A stretch of 64,000 nt of DNA from the NCBI GenBank assembly GCA_018672475.1, contig JABHFS010000146.1, forward strand, positions 1 through 64,000, read 5' to 3'. The notes under the pieces were generated by a model. It made no database searches. It had not been told where the DNA came from and saw only the letters and a program-made list of their open reading frames with translations. The stretch comes from Gemmatimonadota bacterium. GTDB lineage: Bacteria > Latescibacterota > UBA2968 > UBA8231. Positions 872 through 54,878 of this stretch are shown piece after piece. The position numbers and the translations under genes are program-made. Position 1 is the first letter of the stretch; the number at the start of each line of letters is the position of its first letter.

Positions 872-2950
872 ATGAATATGGCCCCCGAATTCAACCGGGC
901 AATCAATAGCTCGTTGAACGAGAAATACACCTATTTTCTCGCCGGCCCCTTGGTCGCCGGGCAACGGCAGGCCTTGATTGTGCGTTTGCGCGTCTTACTC
1001 GAAGCGGGAGTGCCCGGTTATGCGATCTTGGTGCTGTTGCCGGATCGGGCGACGGCTCGCCGTTTTCGTCAACAGGTCGACGAGTTAGATCTCGGGCCTT
1101 ATGGGGCGGTCGATTTACAGACCTATTATGGACTGGCGAGCCGACTGATCCGCCTGTTCTGGCCATTGGTCGCAGACAGCGCTGGCTTTGCTGCGCCGGA
1201 GCGTCCTCCAGTTTTCCTCAATTACGAGACAGCCCAGTACCTCATGGGCCAGTTAAGCGAACCATTGTTGGCCCAGGGGTATTTTGAAGGGCTGTCGATG
1301 AGGCCGCAGCGAATTATTTCCCAATTGCTCGATAATTTGAACAAAGCGGCTGTTGCGGGTTTTGCATTGGGCGAAGTCGCGCCCAGGCTAGCTCAGGCCT
1401 GGACAGGTGAAGCAAGCCGTTTGCGTTTATACGAACATGTGCAAATCTGTATTGATCTATATCGTGGCCATTGTCTACAGCACGGTCTGCTCGACGCCTC
1501 GTTGGTCTTTGAGGTCTTTAATCGGCACCTAGTCGCCAAGGATGAATTCTGGCGTTATTTCACTGAACGATTTCGCCATCTTTTGGTCGACTCGAGCGAG
1601 GAAATGGTTCCGGTTGCACACGATCTGGTTCGTCGATTGTTACACCAATCCGATTCGGCGTTGTTGACAGGAGATGTGCAGGCGGGTTTTAGAATTTTCC
1701 TCGGCGTCGATGCTCCGGGTGCCGCTGAGTTGCAGGCGGAGTGTCAAGAATCGATAGTAGTCGAACCGGCGAATTGTGCCGATCCGCACCTCACCGCTTT
1801 TGCCGGTCGCATTGGCGAAAAACTCGGACAGGGCCGAACCGTGGAAAGCGCTGGGTCGCCCCGACTGGCGGTCGTCGATTTGGTGCAGACCCGTTATCGA
1901 TCGCAAATGATTGAGTCTGTAGCTCGGCAAATAATCGAGTTGATAAATAAAGGTGTCGCGCCGGGTGAAATCGCCATTGTCGCGCCGCATGCCGATGGGG
2001 TGTTGCGCTTTCTTTTGGCGGAGACCTTTCGCGCCGCAGATATTCCTTTCGCGGTGATCCGGCGCTATGAAACTCTGCGCGAAGAGCCGGTAGTGCGGGC
2101 CTGTTTGACTTTGGCGATACTCGCTCACCCCGAATGGGGACAAAGTCTGTCGGTCTTTGATCTTGCAGAAGCCTTGGAACGAGCGCTCAAGCCACTCGAT
2201 CCGCTACGCGCCGAACTTGTCGCCCGCCATCTCTATGATTTGCGTTCAGGGCAGCTCAAAAATGCCAGTGAATTGAACGCCAAGATGCGCGAGCGGATCG
2301 GTTTTGCCGCCGTCGAGCGATATGAAATATTGCGCGAGTGGCTCGAATCCTATCGGGCGGAAGAGCCCGGGGCCTTTGACCATTTTTTACGCCGACTATT
2401 TGGTGAAATCCTCTCGAACTGCGAACTGGAACCGGAGGACGCGCAAGTTTATAGTAAGCTTATCGCCTCGGCTTCTTCATTTCGCCAGGCGGCCCCAGCG
2501 ATGGACCTCAAGGGCACAGACATTGGCAAGCGCTATGTCGAAATGGTGCTCGCCGGAGTGGTCGCCGCGCAATACCTGACCGATGTCGACCTCGAGGAGG
2601 CGCCGGAGTCGATCGCCTTGGTCGCACCGGTTTATACCTACCTGCTCTCCGGACATGTGGCCCGCTATCAATTCTGGCTGGATATCGGTTCGATGAGTTG
2701 GTGGGACCCGTTGCACCAACCACTGACCAACCACTATGTGCTAGCACGTCGCTGGAATCAGGATGAACGTTGGACGGATGCGGTTGATTTTTCGATTCGC
2801 AACCAAAACCTATATCGCCTGGTGCGGGGACTGTGTCTGCGATGTCGAGGCGGTATCTATCTTTGCGCCAGTGACTCTGAGGGGCGGGGCGAAGTGCAGG
2901 ATGGTCCATTGATGATGGCCGTGCAACAGGTATTGCAGGAGCGCGCGTGA
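872..2950 (+). CDS. AddB-like inactivated superfamily I helicase-fold protein
   Basis: A 692-residue protein resembling the helicase-like half of AddB or RecC: a UvrD-like fold that has lost ATPase motifs. The Walker A position near residues 23-32 reads FLAGPLVAGQ, lacking the GxGKT lysine. The DEAD-box position near residue 236 reads LLVDSSEEM instead of the usual VDEAQE-type sequence. Known AddB proteins use such a domain to scan DNA and recognise Chi-like sites, and AddB also carries a C-terminal Fe-S nuclease. That nuclease is missing here but is encoded separately two genes downstream. Start ATG 872 has no clear ribosome site, and ATG 878 is an alternative. The stop overlaps the next start by 4 nt (GTGA). 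First gene of a four-gene repair operon. Confidence 0.65.
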   Translation: MNMAPEFNRAINSSLNEKYTYFLAGPLVAGQRQALIVRLRVLLEAGVPGYAILVLLPDRATARRFRQQVDELDLGPYGAVDLQTYYGLASRLIRLFWPLVADSAGFAAPERPPVFLNYETAQYLMGQLSEPLLAQGYFEGLSMRPQRIISQLLDNLNKAAVAGFALGEVAPRLAQAWTGEASRLRLYEHVQICIDLYRGHCLQHGLLDASLVFEVFNRHLVAKDEFWRYFTERFRHLLVDSSEEMVPVAHDLVRRLLHQSDSALLTGDVQAGFRIFLGVDAPGAAELQAECQESIVVEPANCADPHLTAFAGRIGEKLGQGRTVESAGSPRLAVVDLVQTRYRSQMIESVARQIIELINKGVAPGEIAIVAPHADGVLRFLLAETFRAADIPFAVIRRYETLREEPVVRACLTLAILAHPEWGQSLSVFDLAEALERALKPLDPLRAELVARHLYDLRSGQLKNASELNAKMRERIGFAAVERYEILREWLESYRAEEPGAFDHFLRRLFGEILSNCELEPEDAQVYSKLIASASSFRQAAPAMDLKGTDIGKRYVEMVLAGVVAAQYLTDVDLEEAPESIALVAPVYTYLLSGHVARYQFWLDIGSMSWWDPLHQPLTNHYVLARRWNQDERWTDAVDFSIRNQNLYRLVRGLCLRCRGGIYLCASDSEGRGEVQDGPLMMAVQQVLQERA

Positions 2951-5154
2951 ACCAATTCCAACCGCGCGAAGGTCAGCGTCAAATTCTTGACTATCAAGGC
3001 GGAAAGATGGGCGTATCGGCCGTGCCGGGCAGTGGTAAGACGGCGACAATTGTCGCTCTGGCGACCCGCTTGATTGCGGAAGGGCGCACCGAGGGCGGCC
3101 AGGTGCTGATCGTCACCTACCAGAATGCCGCCGTCGACAATATTCGCTCGCGAATCCGCCAGCGATTAGAAGAGATGGACCTGTTGCAAATCGGCTATGA
3201 TGTCCGCACGTTGCACAGCCTGTCTTATGGCATCGTCCAGGCCAATTCGGGCTTGGCCGGCACTACGGCTGAATTCGCGGTATTGGACGAGCGTTCCAGT
3301 GGGGATTTGCTCGACAAAGCGGTGCGTATCTGGAACGCGGAAAATAAGGGTATTTGGGGGCGTCTTGGGCCGGGTGATTATATAGATGAGCGGTGGGAAC
3401 GAGAATGGCGCGATATAGCACGCAAGGTGGCCAAGACCGTTATTACCAGCGCTAAGAATCGCCGGTTGCGGGCGGAAGATTTATTGGCGAGGATCGGCGA
3501 GGGCGGCGGCGACGAACTCAATCAATTTTTGCGGATCGGTGCCGGGATATACCAACTCTACCAACAGCAGATAGAGACGATCGGCGGTCTTGATTTTGAT
3601 GATTTGGTGTGGAGAGCAGCCGAACTGTTAGACCAGTACCCTGACCTGTGTGCTCGCTACCGACAGCGTTGGCCGGTGGTACTAGAGGACGAAGCACAGG
3701 ACAGCGTGCCGCTGCAAGAAGAGTTGCTCTCCCTCCTGGCGGGCCCCGAGGGCAACTGGATCCGGGTCGGCGATCCGAATCAGGCCATTATGAGCACATT
3801 TACCGCCGCGGACCCGCGTTATCTTAGGCGATTTCTCGAACGCGACGATGTCGAGGCGCAGGAGATGGCCATTTCCGGTCGCTGTGCACCGATGATTATC
3901 GATCTGGCCAATTTTCTCGTCGAATGGGTTTCGGTCGAACACCCACTCGAAGAAGTCCGCGAAAGGGCGTTCCGCCAACAGCTTATACAGCCGACGGAGC
4001 GCGGTGACCCGCAGCAGAATCCGGACGACGCGGACAGCGCGATCGGCTTTCGGGAATACAATAACCGCCAAGAGGAATTTTCTAGTATAGCTCGCAGGTC
4101 CCATGCTTTCGTCGGCAAGTATCCCGATCTCACCGTGGCCATTTTGGTGTCGACCAATCGCATCGGTTATGAGATGGCCGAGCATTTGCGCGAGGCCGGG
4201 GCCGATTTCGACGAAGTCTTGCAAAGCCCGCGATCGGCGCGGCAGGTTAGTGAGGCGTTGTGCCAAGTTGTTCAGTTTCTCGCCGAACCGCTGGGGCGTA
4301 ATCACCTAGAAAAAGCCTATCGGGCCTTGCTCGGTTTCTGGCCCGGACCGACGGGCCCGGGAGAGGAAGAAACGGTCGCGACATTATTGCGCAGTTGTTA
4401 TCGACCTGAGGCGCTGCTTTATCCGGCGGCAGGAACCAAGATGGAAGAGGCCTTGCCGCCGGTCGATAAAGTCGAAGTGCAGGACTTGGAGGCGATAGCC
4501 CATCTTTGTAGTTATTTGCGACGTTGGCTCAGGGCGGTGTCGTTGCCGGTGGACCAGTTGTTGATGACCGTCGCCCAGGATCTTTTGCAAGAGGGCGATT
4601 TGGCTATGGCGCAGAATTTAGCAACTTATTTACGCACTCGCGCCGATCAGAACATGGATTGGCGCTTGCCCGAATTGGCCCGTGAGTTAAGCCTCGCGGT
4701 CCAGGGCAAAGCCGGGGTATTGGCCGAAGAAGAGGATGTCTTCGCCCCGCGACCGGGGCGGATCTCTCTGACGACGATGCATAAGGCTAAGGGGATGGAG
4801 TGGGATTTGGTCTATGTCATGGGGGTTGGTGGCGATTGGTTTCCCCATGATCTCGATGCTCGATTTTTCGGCGAATACGAATTCCTCGGTGGCGATCCCT
4901 GCGAGGATGCGCGGGCAGAGTTGTTAGGGCTGACAGGCGAGATCGGTTCCGTGCGGTTGTCGGCGACGGATCTCGCCCATGTCGAGGTTATCGCTGAACG
5001 CTTGCGTTTACTCTATGTCGCCATCACTCGGGCGCGGCGTTATCTGGCGATTAGTTGGAGTCGCGAGATACCGAGGGCGACGCGCTCATTTGCCGTACCG
5101 GCCGCAGAGTCGTTCCGACAGTTGGAAGCCTATTACCAATTGCAACGTCGATGA
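2947..5154 (+). CDS. UvrD/AddA-like ATP-dependent DNA helicase
   Basis: A 735-residue superfamily I helicase with intact motifs. Walker A is PGSGKT (residues 27-32), and motif II is VLEDEAQD near 244-251. The Q-containing motif GDPNQAIM follows, then the late motif TTMHKAKGMEWD near 608-619 and motif VI YVAITRARR near 690. Such enzymes translocate 3'-5' on single-stranded DNA using ATP. AddA normally has a C-terminal nuclease domain, but this protein ends soon after motif VI and has none, so it is either a UvrD-type helicase or the motor of a split AddAB-like complex. GTG start overlaps the upstream TGA, and its own stop overlaps the next ATG (ATGA), implying translational coupling with its partners. 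Confidence 0.85.
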   Translation: MNQFQPREGQRQILDYQGGKMGVSAVPGSGKTATIVALATRLIAEGRTEGGQVLIVTYQNAAVDNIRSRIRQRLEEMDLLQIGYDVRTLHSLSYGIVQANSGLAGTTAEFAVLDERSSGDLLDKAVRIWNAENKGIWGRLGPGDYIDERWEREWRDIARKVAKTVITSAKNRRLRAEDLLARIGEGGGDELNQFLRIGAGIYQLYQQQIETIGGLDFDDLVWRAAELLDQYPDLCARYRQRWPVVLEDEAQDSVPLQEELLSLLAGPEGNWIRVGDPNQAIMSTFTAADPRYLRRFLERDDVEAQEMAISGRCAPMIIDLANFLVEWVSVEHPLEEVRERAFRQQLIQPTERGDPQQNPDDADSAIGFREYNNRQEEFSSIARRSHAFVGKYPDLTVAILVSTNRIGYEMAEHLREAGADFDEVLQSPRSARQVSEALCQVVQFLAEPLGRNHLEKAYRALLGFWPGPTGPGEEETVATLLRSCYRPEALLYPAAGTKMEEALPPVDKVEVQDLEAIAHLCSYLRRWLRAVSLPVDQLLMTVAQDLLQEGDLAMAQNLATYLRTRADQNMDWRLPELARELSLAVQGKAGVLAEEEDVFAPRPGRISLTTMHKAKGMEWDLVYVMGVGGDWFPHDLDARFFGEYEFLGGDPCEDARAELLGLTGEIGSVRLSATDLAHVEVIAERLRLLYVAITRARRYLAISWSREIPRATRSFAVPAAESFRQLEAYYQLQRR

Positions 5155-5954
5155 TAAACAAGGGATTCAAATTCAGCCAAAGCTCGCTAACGACCTTCAA
5201 GCAATGTCGGCGCCGGTTCTTACTGCGTTATTTGCAGCACATGCAATGGCCCGCCCCGTTGACCGATCATTTGAGCGAGTGGGAGCAAACTATCCAGCGC
5301 GGCTTGTTTTTTCACCAGTTCATCCTGCAGGAGAGCTTGGGTTTGCATGTCGAGGCCGCGATACACAAGAGCGATGATCCGCTGCTGCGAACTTGGTGGG
5401 ACAATTGGCGCAAGCAGGCTCCGGATATGCCGCGAGGAGAGCTTTTCAGTGAGACGATGCTCTCGGTACCCTTCGGCGAGCGCCGTCTGGTGGCGAAGCT
5501 CGACCGAGTGATTTTTGCAGAAGACGGTCGGGTATTGATATTCGATTGGAAAACAGGGCGACGCAAACCGAAGCAGGCCGAATATGTCGATAATTGGCAA
5601 ACCCTTGTCTACCGCTTCGTGGTAGTCGAAGCTGGGGCTCTTTTAACCGGGGGGCACCCGGTGGATCCGGCTAATGTTTCGCTGATCTACTGGCACGCGC
5701 AATATCCTCAGGCAATACAGCCCATTATTTATTCGTCCGCAGAGCATGAGGCTGCACGAAATCGATTGACGCAGAAGATGGCCGAGATCGAGGGATTGCC
5801 AGATGAAGCGGCCTATGCAAAAACAGAAGATCTAACGGAGTGCCGCCGTTGCGAATATCATACGTATTGCGAGCGGGTTTCACCGCGAGGCGAAGACTGG
5901 GATATCGATGAGGACGAGCTGGATTGGGATCTATTGCCTGAGGCGGAGCTCTGA
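5151..5954 (+). CDS. PD-(D/E)XK nuclease with AddB-type Fe-S cysteines
   Basis: A 267-residue stand-alone nuclease of the RecB/AddB C-terminal type. The active site is visible as Asp118 (AKLDRV), Asp132 and Lys134 (IFDWKTG) and Gln150 (NWQTLVY). Cys19 and a C-x2-C-x5-C group (Cys231, 234, 240) match the four cysteines that hold a 4Fe-4S cluster around the nuclease domain of AddB. It would cut DNA strands unwound by the helicase encoded just upstream. ATG 5151 overlaps the upstream stop (ATGA). In-frame starts further upstream (for example 5055) would lie inside the helicase gene and add residues unrelated to the family. The acidic C-terminal tail (about 20 residues rich in D and E) is a local peculiarity. 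Confidence 0.88.
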   Translation: MINKGFKFSQSSLTTFKQCRRRFLLRYLQHMQWPAPLTDHLSEWEQTIQRGLFFHQFILQESLGLHVEAAIHKSDDPLLRTWWDNWRKQAPDMPRGELFSETMLSVPFGERRLVAKLDRVIFAEDGRVLIFDWKTGRRKPKQAEYVDNWQTLVYRFVVVEAGALLTGGHPVDPANVSLIYWHAQYPQAIQPIIYSSAEHEAARNRLTQKMAEIEGLPDEAAYAKTEDLTECRRCEYHTYCERVSPRGEDWDIDEDELDWDLLPEAEL

Positions 5955-5956
5955 CC

Positions 5957-7861
5957 GTGGAGTGGAAAGATACCGGGACCGCCCCCGCACCAGAACTTGC
6001 TGCGCGCTTGGGGGTCTCGGACTTGGTAGCCCAGCTGCTCTCTGCGCGTGGACTTGGCGATGAAATCGCAAGCAAAAATAGGTTGAATCCGCTAGCGGTC
6101 GAAGATTGGCCCTGGTCGGATGTTACGGGTTTAGACGAATTGCTGGCGGTTTTAGCTGAGGCGAAGGAGGTCGGGCAGGGGATTTTAGTGTGTGGAGGGC
6201 AGAGCGCAGGGGATCAAGTCGCCATGGCCCTCTGTGTTGGGGGGTTGCGGCAGTTTGGTTTTGCGGTGTCGTATTGTTTAGAGGGCCTGGCAAATTCAGT
6301 CGACATCACCGCGTTTGGTACCCAGTCTGATGCTAAATATTTGCAGTTGAAGTTAGGGCTTGGCGTAGAGGCGACAGGGGTGATTTCGCTTACTGATCCG
6401 AGTGCTCAGATAAGCGTGCGGATAAGCGCGGAGCCCGACGAAATCAAAGGGGACCATCCTTTGTGGCTGGCTGGCCGGGCGGGGCTCTGCTGGTGGCTGC
6501 TAAGAGCGCTGGCCCAAGTGCATAATGGCGGTGGGGAAATGCGCGAGTTTGCTGATCTTATCGCCTTGTCATCGATTGTCGACGGCGCGGCGATGCTGGG
6601 ATTGAATCGTTCGCTGACCCAGTGGGGGGGGGCGAAACTCATTTATCGTCCCAGGACTGGTCTCGCGGCTTTGATGCGGGCAGCCAAGCTCATGCCCCCG
6701 GTTCTAGTGTCAAATAAATATATCGATAGTTCGTTAGGTGCCCGATTGCGTGCGGCGGAACGAAGAGGGCTCGCGGCCACGTCAATCGATTTGCTATTGG
6801 CTGAAGAGGCCGGGCTGGCGGACGAATGGGCTGTGGATGTCGAAAACGGTTATCGGGAAGAACGCTTGGCGCAGCGGCAAGAAGAGATGGTGCCGGAGAG
6901 AGAGTCATTGGCGATCGAGGCTTATATTGGCCTGGCCCAAATGCGGCCGGCTTTGGGCCATGAGATCTCCCGGCTCGGACCTTTTGGCCGAGGAAACCCC
7001 GAGCCGCTGTTGGCGAGCCGCAGGGTTCGCTTGGTCAATGTAACGAGTACAGGGCTTTCGCGCCGTCATACTCGTTTGCTCGTTGAGGACGAGGAGGGGC
7101 ATAGCCTTTCTGGGCTGTGGCGGTACAAACAACCTGAGGAGGTGCCGGGCGCTTGGGGAGATATCGCGTTCAATCTGCGGCTGGATTATTATCGCGGCAG
7201 CGAAAATGTGCAGTTGGAGATTGTTGCTTTCAGGCTTTTGGTGGCGGAAGAAGATACCGAATTAAAGCCGGAACTGCCTTTCAGTGTAGAGGATAAGCGC
7301 ACTGCCGGCGATCGTATGGGCGAACTCGCGAAATTGTTAGCGAGAGACGCGAGACTACAGATCTGGGCGGAAGCAGGTGCGTTTCCCGTGGCCGCGATAG
7401 CACGCGATAAGCTGCAGCGGGGGAAGATGTTGGTCCTCTGGACGGCTCCTCCGGGGCCAAGTATTCTGCGGGAAGCACTTGAACGAGTCGGGCCTAGCAA
7501 AGTCGTGTTGCTATCAGCTGAAAGAAACACGGTCGCGCCCGGTGATTTTTTGCGCCACTTAGGCGGCTTGGTCAAATGGATACTTGCCAACCGGGATGCA
7601 ACGGTAGGAATAACTGAGTTGGCGGGGCGTCTTGGCGAAATGAATGCGACGGTATTAGCCGGTCTCGAGTTGTTAGCCTTCAAGGGGCTATTGGGGTATC
7701 GCGAAGAAGGAAAGCGGTTACATTTTTCCCGAGAAGCCAACCCTGGAGTGCAAGACCCGGAGCGTTTAGGGCATCTATTGGCGGAGTCAGCGGCTTATCG
7801 AAGATATTTCGCGCAAGCACCGGCGGTTGAGATACTGCAGTTGTCGACTGATTCTATATAA
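5957..7861 (+). CDS. RecJ-like protein with lost DHH active site
   Basis: A 634-residue protein that aligns by eye with RecJ single-strand exonuclease along much of its length but is catalytically degenerate. The first metal motif (GDYDxDG in RecJ) reads CGGQSAG at residues 79-85. The DHH motif reads TDPS at 146-149. The DHHA1 region with its GGH signature appears absent. The later RecJ OB-fold entry motif is intact (LGPFGRGNPEP, about 342-352). A roughly 200-residue C-terminal extension contains a predicted winged-helix-like stretch near 540-580. It starts with GTG 3 nt after the nuclease stop, so it is the last gene of the repair operon. A G9 tract lies at 6624-6632. It may have a structural or DNA-binding role; no enzymatic function is supported. 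Confidence 0.7.
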   Translation: MEWKDTGTAPAPELAARLGVSDLVAQLLSARGLGDEIASKNRLNPLAVEDWPWSDVTGLDELLAVLAEAKEVGQGILVCGGQSAGDQVAMALCVGGLRQFGFAVSYCLEGLANSVDITAFGTQSDAKYLQLKLGLGVEATGVISLTDPSAQISVRISAEPDEIKGDHPLWLAGRAGLCWWLLRALAQVHNGGGEMREFADLIALSSIVDGAAMLGLNRSLTQWGGAKLIYRPRTGLAALMRAAKLMPPVLVSNKYIDSSLGARLRAAERRGLAATSIDLLLAEEAGLADEWAVDVENGYREERLAQRQEEMVPERESLAIEAYIGLAQMRPALGHEISRLGPFGRGNPEPLLASRRVRLVNVTSTGLSRRHTRLLVEDEEGHSLSGLWRYKQPEEVPGAWGDIAFNLRLDYYRGSENVQLEIVAFRLLVAEEDTELKPELPFSVEDKRTAGDRMGELAKLLARDARLQIWAEAGAFPVAAIARDKLQRGKMLVLWTAPPGPSILREALERVGPSKVVLLSAERNTVAPGDFLRHLGGLVKWILANRDATVGITELAGRLGEMNATVLAGLELLAFKGLLGYREEGKRLHFSREANPGVQDPERLGHLLAESAAYRRYFAQAPAVEILQLSTDSI

Positions 7862-36702: not shown

Positions 36703-38967
36703 TCAAGCTGGCTCTAATTGTGCGTAGGCGACGGCAACGCGTTTGACTTGTGTCTGGAAACGTATGGAGAGTTTCATTTTTTCGCCATGGCCTTCGCGTT
36801 CGACGATCTGACCACGTCCCCATTTGGGGTGGCGGACCCATTGTCCGACGGCTAGGAAGTCGTCGGAATCTACGAACTCACCGAATTCAGCCGCGTTTTG
36901 CGTCACCTGTGGCGGTTCGTCCCATTCGTAGTGTACGCCTTTGGGGGTCGGCTTGGGCACTGGTTTGACCTTGCGCGCCGGCGGGCCACCGCGCTGCTGG
37001 CGGGAACGGGCAAACCCACGGTCTATTTCGGAACTTGATTCAATGAGTTCTGTTGGGATTTCATTGAGGAAACGCGAAGGTTCGCACTCGATCATATTGC
37101 CATAGGCATATCGTCTGAGCGCGTAGCTGAGGTTGAGTTTTTCCATCGCGCGAGTCATGCCGACATAACACAGGCGGCGTTCTTCTTCTATGGCCTGTGG
37201 ATTGACTCGACTTTCGTCTACGGCCCGGGCGGTGGGAAAGAGGTTTTCCTCCATGCCGGAAATAAAGACTAAAGGGTACTCCAACCCTTTGGCGCTATGC
37301 ATCGTCATCAGGGTAATCGCATTTCCTTCTTCGCCATTCTCATCCGCCGAACTCATCAGCGACTTTTCTTCGAGATAGGTTTCGAGCGAATTTTCCTCGT
37401 TGGTATCGAAATACTCAGTCATTTCCGCCAGTAATTGATCGATGTTCTGTTCGCGCGCCTCGGCTTCGGGGGTGTTTTCCTCGCGTAGCATCTCGCGGTA
37501 GCCGCTTTTCTCGACGACCTCGTTGCCGAGTTCGGGCAGATCAAGGGTTTCCTTCGCGGCGATCAGGCCACGCAAAAGGCTTGAGAATTCACTGAGGCTC
37601 TTTGTCGCCCTGCCGCCGAGATTGGGCACCTCATCTACTTGCTCTAGCGCGGCAAATAGACTTAGGCTGCGCTCTTGCGCGAATATTTGCAGCCTTTCCA
37701 ACGATGTGTCGCCGATGCCGCGACGGGGGGTGTTGACAATACGACGCAGCGTGACATCGTCGATCGGATTAACCAAGACCCGCAGGTAGGAGAGGATATC
37801 CTTGATTTCTTTGCGGTCATAAAAACGAATACCCCCGACGATGATATAGGGGAATCCCGACCGCTGTAATTCCTCTTCGAGAGGACGTGATTGCGCATTG
37901 GTGCGATAGAGTATCGCGGTGTCACCGAGACCATAGGCACCCGAACCGGTCTGGCGGCGAATCGTATCGATTATATGGCGGGCTTCGCGGCGGTCGGTGT
38001 CGCATTCGACGACCTTGACCGGGTCGCCCTCGGGGCCTTCGGTCCACAACTCCTTGCCTTTGCGGTCTTGGTTGTTACCGATTACCGCATTGGCGGCGGA
38101 GAGGATGCGGGCGGTCGAACGGTAGTTTTGCTCGAGACGGACGATATTGGCGTCTGGATAGTCGCGTTCGAAGTCGAGAATATTGCGAATGTCGGCGCCG
38201 CGAAACTTATAGATCGACTGATCGTCGTCGCCAACAACACAGATATTGCGGTGATGGGCGGACAACTGGCGGCAAAGCATATACTGAGGTTTGTTGGTAT
38301 CCTGGTATTCGTCGACGAGGAAATGTTCAAAGCGCTCTTGGTATTTTTTCAGGATCTCTGGATGGCGGTTGAACTGGTGTACGACCTCGGTTAGCAAATC
38401 GTCGAAGTCAAAGGCATTATTGCGCCGCAATTCGGTTTCATAGGCGGTGTATAGCTCAGCCATTTGGCGTTTGCCAGGAGCCTCGCCGGCTTGGCGGGCG
38501 AACTCCGTCGGGTCGAGCATGGCGTTTTTGGCCTGGCTGATCTGGCCGATAACCTGGCGCGGGGTCAATTCTCGTTCGTCGATATTGTTGGCTTTGAACA
38601 CGCGCCGGATAACGGCACGACGGTCGTCTTCGTCGTAAATAGAAAAATTAGAGTCGAGCCCGAAGCCTTCAGCTTCATAGCGCAACAGGCGCACGCAAAT
38701 CGAGTGAAAAGTGCCGATCCAGATATCCGAAGCCAGACCGCCGACTAAAGTCTGCACTCTTTCGCGCATCTCTCCGGCGGCTTTGTTGGTAAAGGTCACG
38801 GCAAGCACTTTCCAGGGCGCGATACCGATTTCATTGACCAGTGAAGCGATGCGATAAGTGAGTACGCGGGTCTTGCCCGAGCCGGCTCCCGCTAATACCA
38901 ATAGGGGCCCGTTTATGGTTTCGGCGGCACGGCGTTGGGCGGGATTCAGAGCGTCTAGTATGGACAT
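36703..38967 (-). CDS. pcrA: UvrD/PcrA-type DNA helicase
   Basis: A 754-residue superfamily I 3'-5' helicase with the complete PcrA/UvrD motif set: the Q motif (LNPAQRRAAE, 7-16), Walker A AGAGSGKT (30-37), motif II VDEYQDTN (about 218-225), motif III GDDDQSIYKFRGAD, motif V TMHSAKGLEYP and motif VI YVGMTRAMEKL. The C-terminal 80 residues include the PcrA-type end (VGQWVRHPKWGRGQIVEREG), which marks it as PcrA-like rather than the AddA-like enzyme at 2947. It acts in nucleotide excision repair, mismatch repair and removal of recombinase filaments. A TTGACA promoter lies just upstream at 39032-39059. Confidence 0.93.
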   Translation of the reverse strand: MSILDALNPAQRRAAETINGPLLVLAGAGSGKTRVLTYRIASLVNEIGIAPWKVLAVTFTNKAAGEMRERVQTLVGGLASDIWIGTFHSICVRLLRYEAEGFGLDSNFSIYDEDDRRAVIRRVFKANNIDERELTPRQVIGQISQAKNAMLDPTEFARQAGEAPGKRQMAELYTAYETELRRNNAFDFDDLLTEVVHQFNRHPEILKKYQERFEHFLVDEYQDTNKPQYMLCRQLSAHHRNICVVGDDDQSIYKFRGADIRNILDFERDYPDANIVRLEQNYRSTARILSAANAVIGNNQDRKGKELWTEGPEGDPVKVVECDTDRREARHIIDTIRRQTGSGAYGLGDTAILYRTNAQSRPLEEELQRSGFPYIIVGGIRFYDRKEIKDILSYLRVLVNPIDDVTLRRIVNTPRRGIGDTSLERLQIFAQERSLSLFAALEQVDEVPNLGGRATKSLSEFSSLLRGLIAAKETLDLPELGNEVVEKSGYREMLREENTPEAEAREQNIDQLLAEMTEYFDTNEENSLETYLEEKSLMSSADENGEEGNAITLMTMHSAKGLEYPLVFISGMEENLFPTARAVDESRVNPQAIEEERRLCYVGMTRAMEKLNLSYALRRYAYGNMIECEPSRFLNEIPTELIESSSEIDRGFARSRQQRGGPPARKVKPVPKPTPKGVHYEWDEPPQVTQNAAEFGEFVDSDDFLAVGQWVRHPKWGRGQIVEREGHGEKMKLSIRFQTQVKRVAVAYAQLEPA

Positions 38968-39031
38968 GAAAAACCAACGGGTAAAGCGGGGAGTATCACG
39001 TGGAAGTTAGCATCAGCCAGGGAGCTAGTAT

Positions 39032-54419: not shown

Positions 54420-54878
54420 ATGGCCCCAAGGGGGGTAAATAAAGTCATCTTGATCGGCAATTTGGGCGCCGATCCCGAGGTGCGCTATACGCCCGATGGC
54501 GCTCCGGTAGCCAATTTTAATTTGGCTACCTCTGAGAGTTGGAACGACCGTACAAGCGGTGAGAAGCAAGAGCGGACCGAATGGCATCGGCTCGTGGTGT
54601 GGCGCAAACTTGCCGAGATTGCCGGTCAATATCTCAAAAAGGGCAGTAAAATTTACATCGAAGGCAAATTACAGACGCGGTCTTGGGAAGATCAGTCGGG
54701 GCAGAAGCGTTATACGACAGAAGTTGTTGTCAATGAGTTGCAGATGCTCGATTCGCGTGGTGAAGGCGGCGGTGGGGGTGGAGGTGGTGGAATATCTCGA
54801 GATCCTGGTCCAGCCGCTCAGCCCGAATATGGACCTCCTCCTGGCGCCGCCGCCGAGGAGGACGATCTACCCTTCTAA
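54420..54878 (+). CDS. ssb: Single-stranded DNA-binding protein
   Basis: A 152-residue SSB. The OB fold begins [21 protein letters not shown] (4-24), with the typical [11 protein letters not shown] and [19 protein letters not shown] segments. A glycine-rich linker with nine Gly in a row follows, and the acidic tip is DDLPF, which recruits partner proteins. It binds ssDNA in replication and repair. ATG 54420 is preferred because AAGGAG lies 7 nt upstream; an in-frame ATG at 54393 lacks a site. It has its own promoter and a strong terminator, so it is monocistronic. Confidence 0.97.

Follow-up and report, generated by a model that had tools for sequence, protein, structure and literature searches.

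A conserved operon for a probable split helicase–nuclease, with a predicted pseudo-RecJ, in a Latescibacterota genome

Textbooks describe three bacterial helicase–nucleases for break ends. Examined here is a four-gene operon, p1 to p4 (Table 1), from a Gemmatimonadota bacterium (Latescibacterota in the GTDB lineage; assembly GCA_018672475.1, contig JABHFS010000146.1), which appears to be a conserved and apparently undescribed variant of this kind of enzyme, the copy studied being a derived form with a pseudo-RecJ. The whole stretch analyzed, referred to as the window, comprises positions 1 to 64,000 of the forward strand. An earlier note, made from its sequence alone, had described the four genes as overlapping or abutting and as a split AddAB-like system. 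The junctions were found as described: the starts of p2 (GTG) and p3 (ATG) overlap the stop codons of the genes before them (GTGA and ATGA, respectively), and p3 and p4 are 2 nt apart. Below, G000 is the window's own genome, other G numbers are genomes compared, C numbers are contigs and L numbers are loci.

Table 1. The four genes of the operon, in window positions
Gene	Position	Strand	Length	Assignment	Basis
p1	872..2950	+	692 aa	SF1A-fold pseudo-helicase, putative AddB-like scaffold	AF2 (AlphaFold2), Foldseek, hhalign
p2	2947..5154	+	735 aa	SF1A helicase (UvrD/AddA-type), complete motifs, own clade	domain searches, alignment, tree
p3	5151..5954	+	267 aa	stand-alone PD-(D/E)XK nuclease, AddB-type 4Fe-4S cysteines	domain search, alignment
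p4	5957..7861	+	634 aa	predicted catalytically dead RecJ	domain search, motifs, fold, dN/dS

Results

The motor, the helicase-fold partner and the free nuclease

Domain searches with p2 returned UvrD-helicase (1.9e-44) and UvrD_C and no nuclease domain, the protein ending after motif VI. Its helicase motifs are complete and invariant across 17 homologues, in keeping with the earlier description of an active-type helicase devoid of a nuclease. The nearest sequence neighbours among solved structures and NCBIfam models were PcrA, UvrD and Rep, followed by AdnB, AddA and RecB. In a maximum likelihood tree, where long branches lead to RecB and to one AddA, p2 forms a clade of its own (100/100), separate from AddA, RecB and UvrD/Rep/PcrA. 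Sequences from G011 and Salinibacter group together within this clade, nested inside the Anaerolineae, which suggests horizontal transfer. A further UvrD/PcrA-type helicase encoded in the window (36705-39006, minus strand; 767-aa frame) is a normal housekeeping paralogue.

Family searches with p1 gave UvrD-type matches, all weak. Its AlphaFold2 model is confident (pLDDT 86, pTM 0.85) and was matched by Foldseek to UvrD (7e-21), Rep, PcrA, AdnB (1.5e-15), AddA and AddB. The match to AddB (3u4q_B; E 5e-14, TM 0.60) has the lowest rmsd among the matches listed, and the p1 profile aligns with that of AddB over 512 columns (97%) in hhalign, so that the structural comparison with AddB proposed in the earlier note gave a match. 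RecC was absent from the best 50 fold matches, and a RecC-like identity was rejected; an Ilyobacter UvrD protein matched by p1 (18.8%) was set aside because its gene context is unrelated.

In the window copy of p1, the Walker A motif is degenerate (GPLVAGQRQ in place of GPAGAGKTT) and motif II reads D-S-S-E-E, where helicases have D-E-x-Q-D. When the p1 family profile is compared with PcrA, motif II changes from IDEYQD to VDSVEE and motif III from GDADQS to GDREGG, and p1 is therefore regarded as a pseudo-helicase. The earlier characterization of p1 as a helicase fold lacking Walker A is right for the window copy but fails as a general trait, as GPAGxGKT-type motifs are kept in G011, G025 and Salinibacter and lost only in the window's lineage. 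The pattern is likewise present in 44 of 52 longer p1 open reading frames (ORFs) from Chloroflexota; the remaining ORFs are mostly truncated or mis-started, with one variant, APAGTGKST. Single in-frame stops were seen in p1 of some Chloroflexota (G105:C30, G140:C43 and G197:C1), reflecting sequencing error or decay.

p3 matches PDDEXK_1 (2.3e-28). The active site (D118 and D132-W-K134 in the window copy) is invariant in relatives as D118 and D132-x-K134, and so are the Fe-S cysteines C19 and C231-x2-C234-x5-C240, which bears out the free nuclease with an AddB cysteine pattern recognized before. In hhalign profile comparisons p3 aligned with the AddB nuclease over the full domain (228 columns, 97%) and far more poorly with that of AddA (62 columns, 80%). 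A dN/dS of 0.155 indicates purifying selection. PADLOC reports weak Cas4-type similarity; no CRISPR-cas genes were found among the operon's neighbours (the PTS EIIA and DUF6785 protein genes described below), and a Cas4-type context is thus lacking. Orthology of p3 with the cyanobacterial-type stand-alone PD-(D/E)XK protein of PDB entries 9iab and 9iac was not established (profile E 1.8e-4 to 0.06); a single Chloroflexota p3 sequence gave no match to these entries, for which no associated paper was found. A 203-aa gene that looks NYN-domain-like by eye separates p2 from p3 in G010, a member of the genus (L041:10043-10654), and in other members this junction is an overlap or a gap of 0.3-1 kb (L042, L183).

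At the C terminus of Chloroflexota p3 proteins, a variable acidic stretch precedes DFEQIxEI(E/A)(F/Y). The final residue is F, Y or W in 48 of the 51 ORFs listed (one of the 48, L106, is a truncated contig end); of the three exceptions, one lies at a contig end, another is mis-framed and the third has a few extra residues. Single-stranded DNA-binding proteins (SSBs) from the same genomes have tips of the EDEFPF or EDDLPF type. The conserved acidic tail reads DWDLLPEAEL in the window p3, and tails in its genus are DWEQIPEAEL-like, with Leu replacing the terminal aromatic residue. The C-terminal domain of Deinococcus radiodurans RecJ has a pocket that receives the last Phe when the SSB tip is bound (PMC4846377); by analogy, the p3 tail, which resembles such a tip, may recruit the RecJ of the operon. 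The window also contains an SSB gene (54435-54749, plus strand), whose product ends in EEDDLPF.

A RecJ-derived protein without catalytic motifs

p4 matches RecJ_OB (1e-15) and, in pieces, TIGR00644 (2.4e-22), and its model (pLDDT 82, pTM 0.60) has the RecJ fold (8y30, 2.3e-23; 5f56, 2.6e-21). All the catalytic motifs, namely DxDVDG (DxDxDG), DHH and GGHPMAAG (GGHxxAAG), are absent and the DHHA1 region is deleted. The earlier note was correct in calling p4 RecJ-like; it missed both this loss and the absence of the gene from the operons of most relatives. The OB fold is kept, as is a C-terminal extension common to operon RecJs elsewhere and missing from the canonical 558-aa RecJ of the genome. 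In a RecJ tree, p4 falls on the operon side on a very long branch. Comparison with the sister species G005 gave a dN/dS of 0.27 (74 synonymous and 65 non-synonymous differences; Fisher p 1e-13), with values of 0.33 for the DHH remnant, 0.11 for the OB fold and 0.27 for the C-terminal part, and this purifying selection rejects a pseudogene. On its motifs and substitution pattern, p4 is predicted to be a catalytically dead but still selected RecJ. The operon RecJ of G011 is complete, with all motifs present, and those found elsewhere keep the DHH and DHHA1 motifs in 29 of 29 longer ORFs.

Distribution across genomes

Among 60 related genomes, p1 and p3 co-occur in the same 24 (weak matches left out), namely G025, 10 of the 11 members of the genus and 13 of the 14 other members of the family. 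Where loci were read in detail, p2 is flanked by p1 and p3 in a constant order, the genes usually overlapping or closely spaced, and retention of the overlapping trio in 24 of 60 genomes argues that the arrangement is not due to chance. p4 is confined to G000, G005 (90%) and G011, so a four-gene operon as the family standard was rejected.

When bacterial genomes were scanned with p2 of G011, 80 loci were returned, nearly all from Chloroflexota/Anaerolineae, with 43-50% identity. Same-strand genes around these p2 sequences included p1 at 60 loci, p3 at 51 and RecJ at 34, many contigs being too short to hold all four genes, and their order was p1-p2-p3-RecJ. Salinibacter ruber M8 has all four genes, arranged in this way, on its plasmid pSR56, so that conservation of the gene order, which the earlier note had suggested checking in relatives, extends to two further phyla. 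The pSR56 unit (L170:1-3700) has a SocA-type antitoxin gene nearby, along with numerous hypothetical genes. A strong p1 match was found in about 21 of 201 genomes in an even sample of Chloroflexota, the phylum of G066. On a parsimonious reading of these sequences, the ancestral unit would have comprised four genes, with an ATP-binding p1 and an active RecJ; in the window's lineage, Walker A would then have been lost, and RecJ would have disappeared from most species and become a pseudoenzyme in two.

Standard machines and genomic surroundings

A search of the rest of the window's genome, likewise suggested earlier, found a complete AddAB on contig C8 (L026:3615-9894) and a canonical RecJ on C114. 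The operon is therefore no replacement for them here, and its candidacy as this genome's only end-processing machine was rejected. The C8 AddAB is unlike the AddAB of the genus, its closest match being in G018 (50%), and may represent a transfer or a contaminant contig or binning error. The single-contig genomes G004 and G006, both of the genus, carry the trio plus long nuclease-domain ORFs of AddA/AddB length, which means that a binning artefact does not account for the coexistence. The PDDEXK_1 search of the window's genome also picked up a 790-aa helicase (G000:C118, L027:441-2813, minus strand), judged by eye to be DinG/XPD-like, that has a PD-(D/E)XK domain upstream.

A different situation is suggested in the Anaerolineae. 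Of 30 such genomes, chosen for having p2, 19 contained no PDDEXK_1 match in a frame longer than ~360 aa, frames of that kind being of AddA/AddB/RecB/AdnAB type; 8 had AddA and/or AddB and 3 were ambiguous. The 19 include G066, a complete chromosome. The operon may thus be the main end-processing machine in these 19 genomes.

The window operon is preceded by a PTS EIIA gene and followed, on the opposite strand, by a gene for a DUF6785/DUF6784 membrane protein, and with these neighbours it appears self-contained and outside any obvious defence island.

Discussion

Proposed function and its alternatives

The operon probably encodes a split helicase–nuclease that, like AddAB, AdnAB and RecBCD, acts on the ends of double-stranded DNA. 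p2 would be the 3'-5' SF1A motor, p1 a scaffold and DNA-end-binding partner in the role that AddB or AdnA has in the known machines, and p3 the Fe-S PD-(D/E)XK nuclease, which AddB carries fused to its scaffold part. The ancestral unit of four genes would also have had a RecJ of its own for removing 5'-ended strands, perhaps anchored by the tail of p3 that resembles an SSB tip. In many Anaerolineae, with other machines absent, the unit would carry out the main double-strand-break resection and degradation of linear DNA, whereas in the window's lineage it would work beside AddAB, RecJ surviving as a subunit that has no catalytic activity and serves in structure or DNA binding. The earlier proposal of a split AddAB holds for the architecture, p1 and p3 corresponding to the halves of AddB, but not for descent, as p2 has its own clade and the operon is not a split product of AddA and AddB. 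Of two findings named in the earlier note as jointly telling against that proposal, the first, a complete AddAB or RecBCD elsewhere, was found in the form of AddAB, while the second, the lack of a structural match for p1, was not.

Several observations weigh against this interpretation. The genes of the unit are spread across several kb at several Chloroflexota loci, and in G066 p1 lies ~0.85 Mb away from p2 and is matched only in part, so tight coupling is not universal. The p1 fold fits UvrD, Rep and PcrA no worse than AddB, and its role could differ from the one modelled here. AddAB coexists with the operon in the window's family, where the operon is therefore dispensable for ordinary resection. 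The figure of 19 in 30 comes mostly from draft metagenome-assembled genomes and takes AddAB absence from one domain family. Finally, the single complex, its substrate, its polarity and its biological role are deduced from genes, folds and conservation.

It is rather unlikely that the system is directed primarily against incoming DNA, such as plasmids and transforming DNA, degrading foreign linear or stalled-replication DNA. In Synechococcus elongatus, the plasmid RSF1010 is better maintained and natural transformation is increased when uvrD, recJcy, Synpcc7942_0992, cas4 or ago is lost (PMC10653904); there, uvrD is a pcrA paralogue, recJcy a second, cyanobacterial RecJ, and Synpcc7942_0992 a PD-(D/E)XK protein, so that three of these genes match the parts list of the operon by description. 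These phenotypes may also furnish independent evidence on the function of the end-processing unit. recB and recC are missing from many cyanobacteria (PMC5101192). The presence of the unit on a Salinibacter plasmid and its absence from most of the 201 Chloroflexota genomes also fit such a role. On the other side, PADLOC returns generic UvrD/GajB/Cas4-type models, and membership of a PADLOC defence system was rejected on that account; p1 was found in no phage, and the window neighbours do not form a defence island. RecBCD and AddAB degrade foreign DNA too, so action against such DNA is compatible with repair.

It is very unlikely that stalled forks or flaps are the site of action, with p2 and p3 forming a helicase–nuclease pair of the Dna2 or UvrD-Cas4 kind, p1 and p4 serving as accessories and no AddAB-like end complex being made. 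The proximity of p2 to PcrA, UvrD and Rep and the weak Cas4-type similarity of p3 point in this direction, as do the unfused UvrD plus Cas4-like operons of Clostridiales, proposed to act in repair (PMC5704561); against it stand the constant companion p1, a second SF1A-fold protein as in AddAB and AdnAB, and the whole-length match of p3 to the AddB nuclease. A decaying relic, redundant with AddAB and RecJ, is hardly credible, for despite the loss of Walker A in p1 and of catalysis in p4, and despite the presence of AddAB and a canonical RecJ, the ORFs are intact in many species, the catalytic residues of p2 and p3 are invariant, and p3 and every segment of p4 are under purifying selection.

The end-processing interpretation can be extended, tentatively, to a further class of end-resection machine, alongside RecBCD, AddAB and AdnAB. 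Such a class would have a separate scaffold, motor and Fe-S nuclease and a dedicated RecJ recruited by an SSB-tip mimic on p3; it would be horizontally mobile, it would be the sole machine in many Anaerolineae, and its RecJ would have become, in the window's lineage, a non-catalytic subunit as Cdc45 did. If the split unit stands alone in many Chloroflexota, it would explain break resection there, and the four-gene version would link RecJ physically with a machine of the AddAB kind. Naturally separated motor, scaffold and nuclease would also provide parts for dissecting such machines, and the unit may offer a common frame for three Synechococcus genes whose limiting effect on plasmid maintenance and on transformation lacks an explanation.

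Comparison with known systems

No description of the four-gene unit was found in the literature searched, which was covered in part. With RecBCD the operon shares its end-processing logic and an SF1A motor related to RecB; it differs in having no fused nuclease and, by domain searches of the four genes, no counterpart of RecC or RecD. Mycobacterial AdnAB likewise pairs an active with an inactive UvrD-like subunit, and p1 and p2 match the AdnA/AdnB structures, but both AdnAB subunits carry fused C-terminal nucleases, which neither p1 nor p2 has. In UvrD-Cas4 fusions and in operons of UvrD with a Cas4-like gene, a pfam12705 nuclease accompanies the UvrD-like helicase (Hudaiberdiev et al. 2017, PMC5704561); no p1 scaffold or RecJ is described for them, and the fusions are single polypeptides. 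The S. elongatus genes uvrD, recJcy and Synpcc7942_0992 can be likened to the operon by description, as a PcrA paralogue, a RecJ paralogue and a PD-(D/E)XK protein that share one phenotype, but they are not reported as a single system (PMC10653904).

p4 has the fold of RecJ (PDB 8y30 and 5f56) and belongs, as Cdc45 does, to the relatives of RecJ that lack nuclease residues, differing from Cdc45 as a bacterial operon RecJ with DHHA1 deleted and no link to a replicative helicase. The closest likeness in layout is to AddAB, in which one active SF1A helicase is joined by a helicase-fold partner and an Fe-S PD-(D/E)XK nuclease with the identical cysteine pattern, and to the two halves of whose AddB subunit p1 and p3 align. 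In the operon, however, the AddB-type fold and the Fe-S nuclease lie on two polypeptides, the motor lacks the C-terminal PD-(D/E)XK nuclease of AddA and falls outside the AddA clade, and a RecJ is part of the operon.

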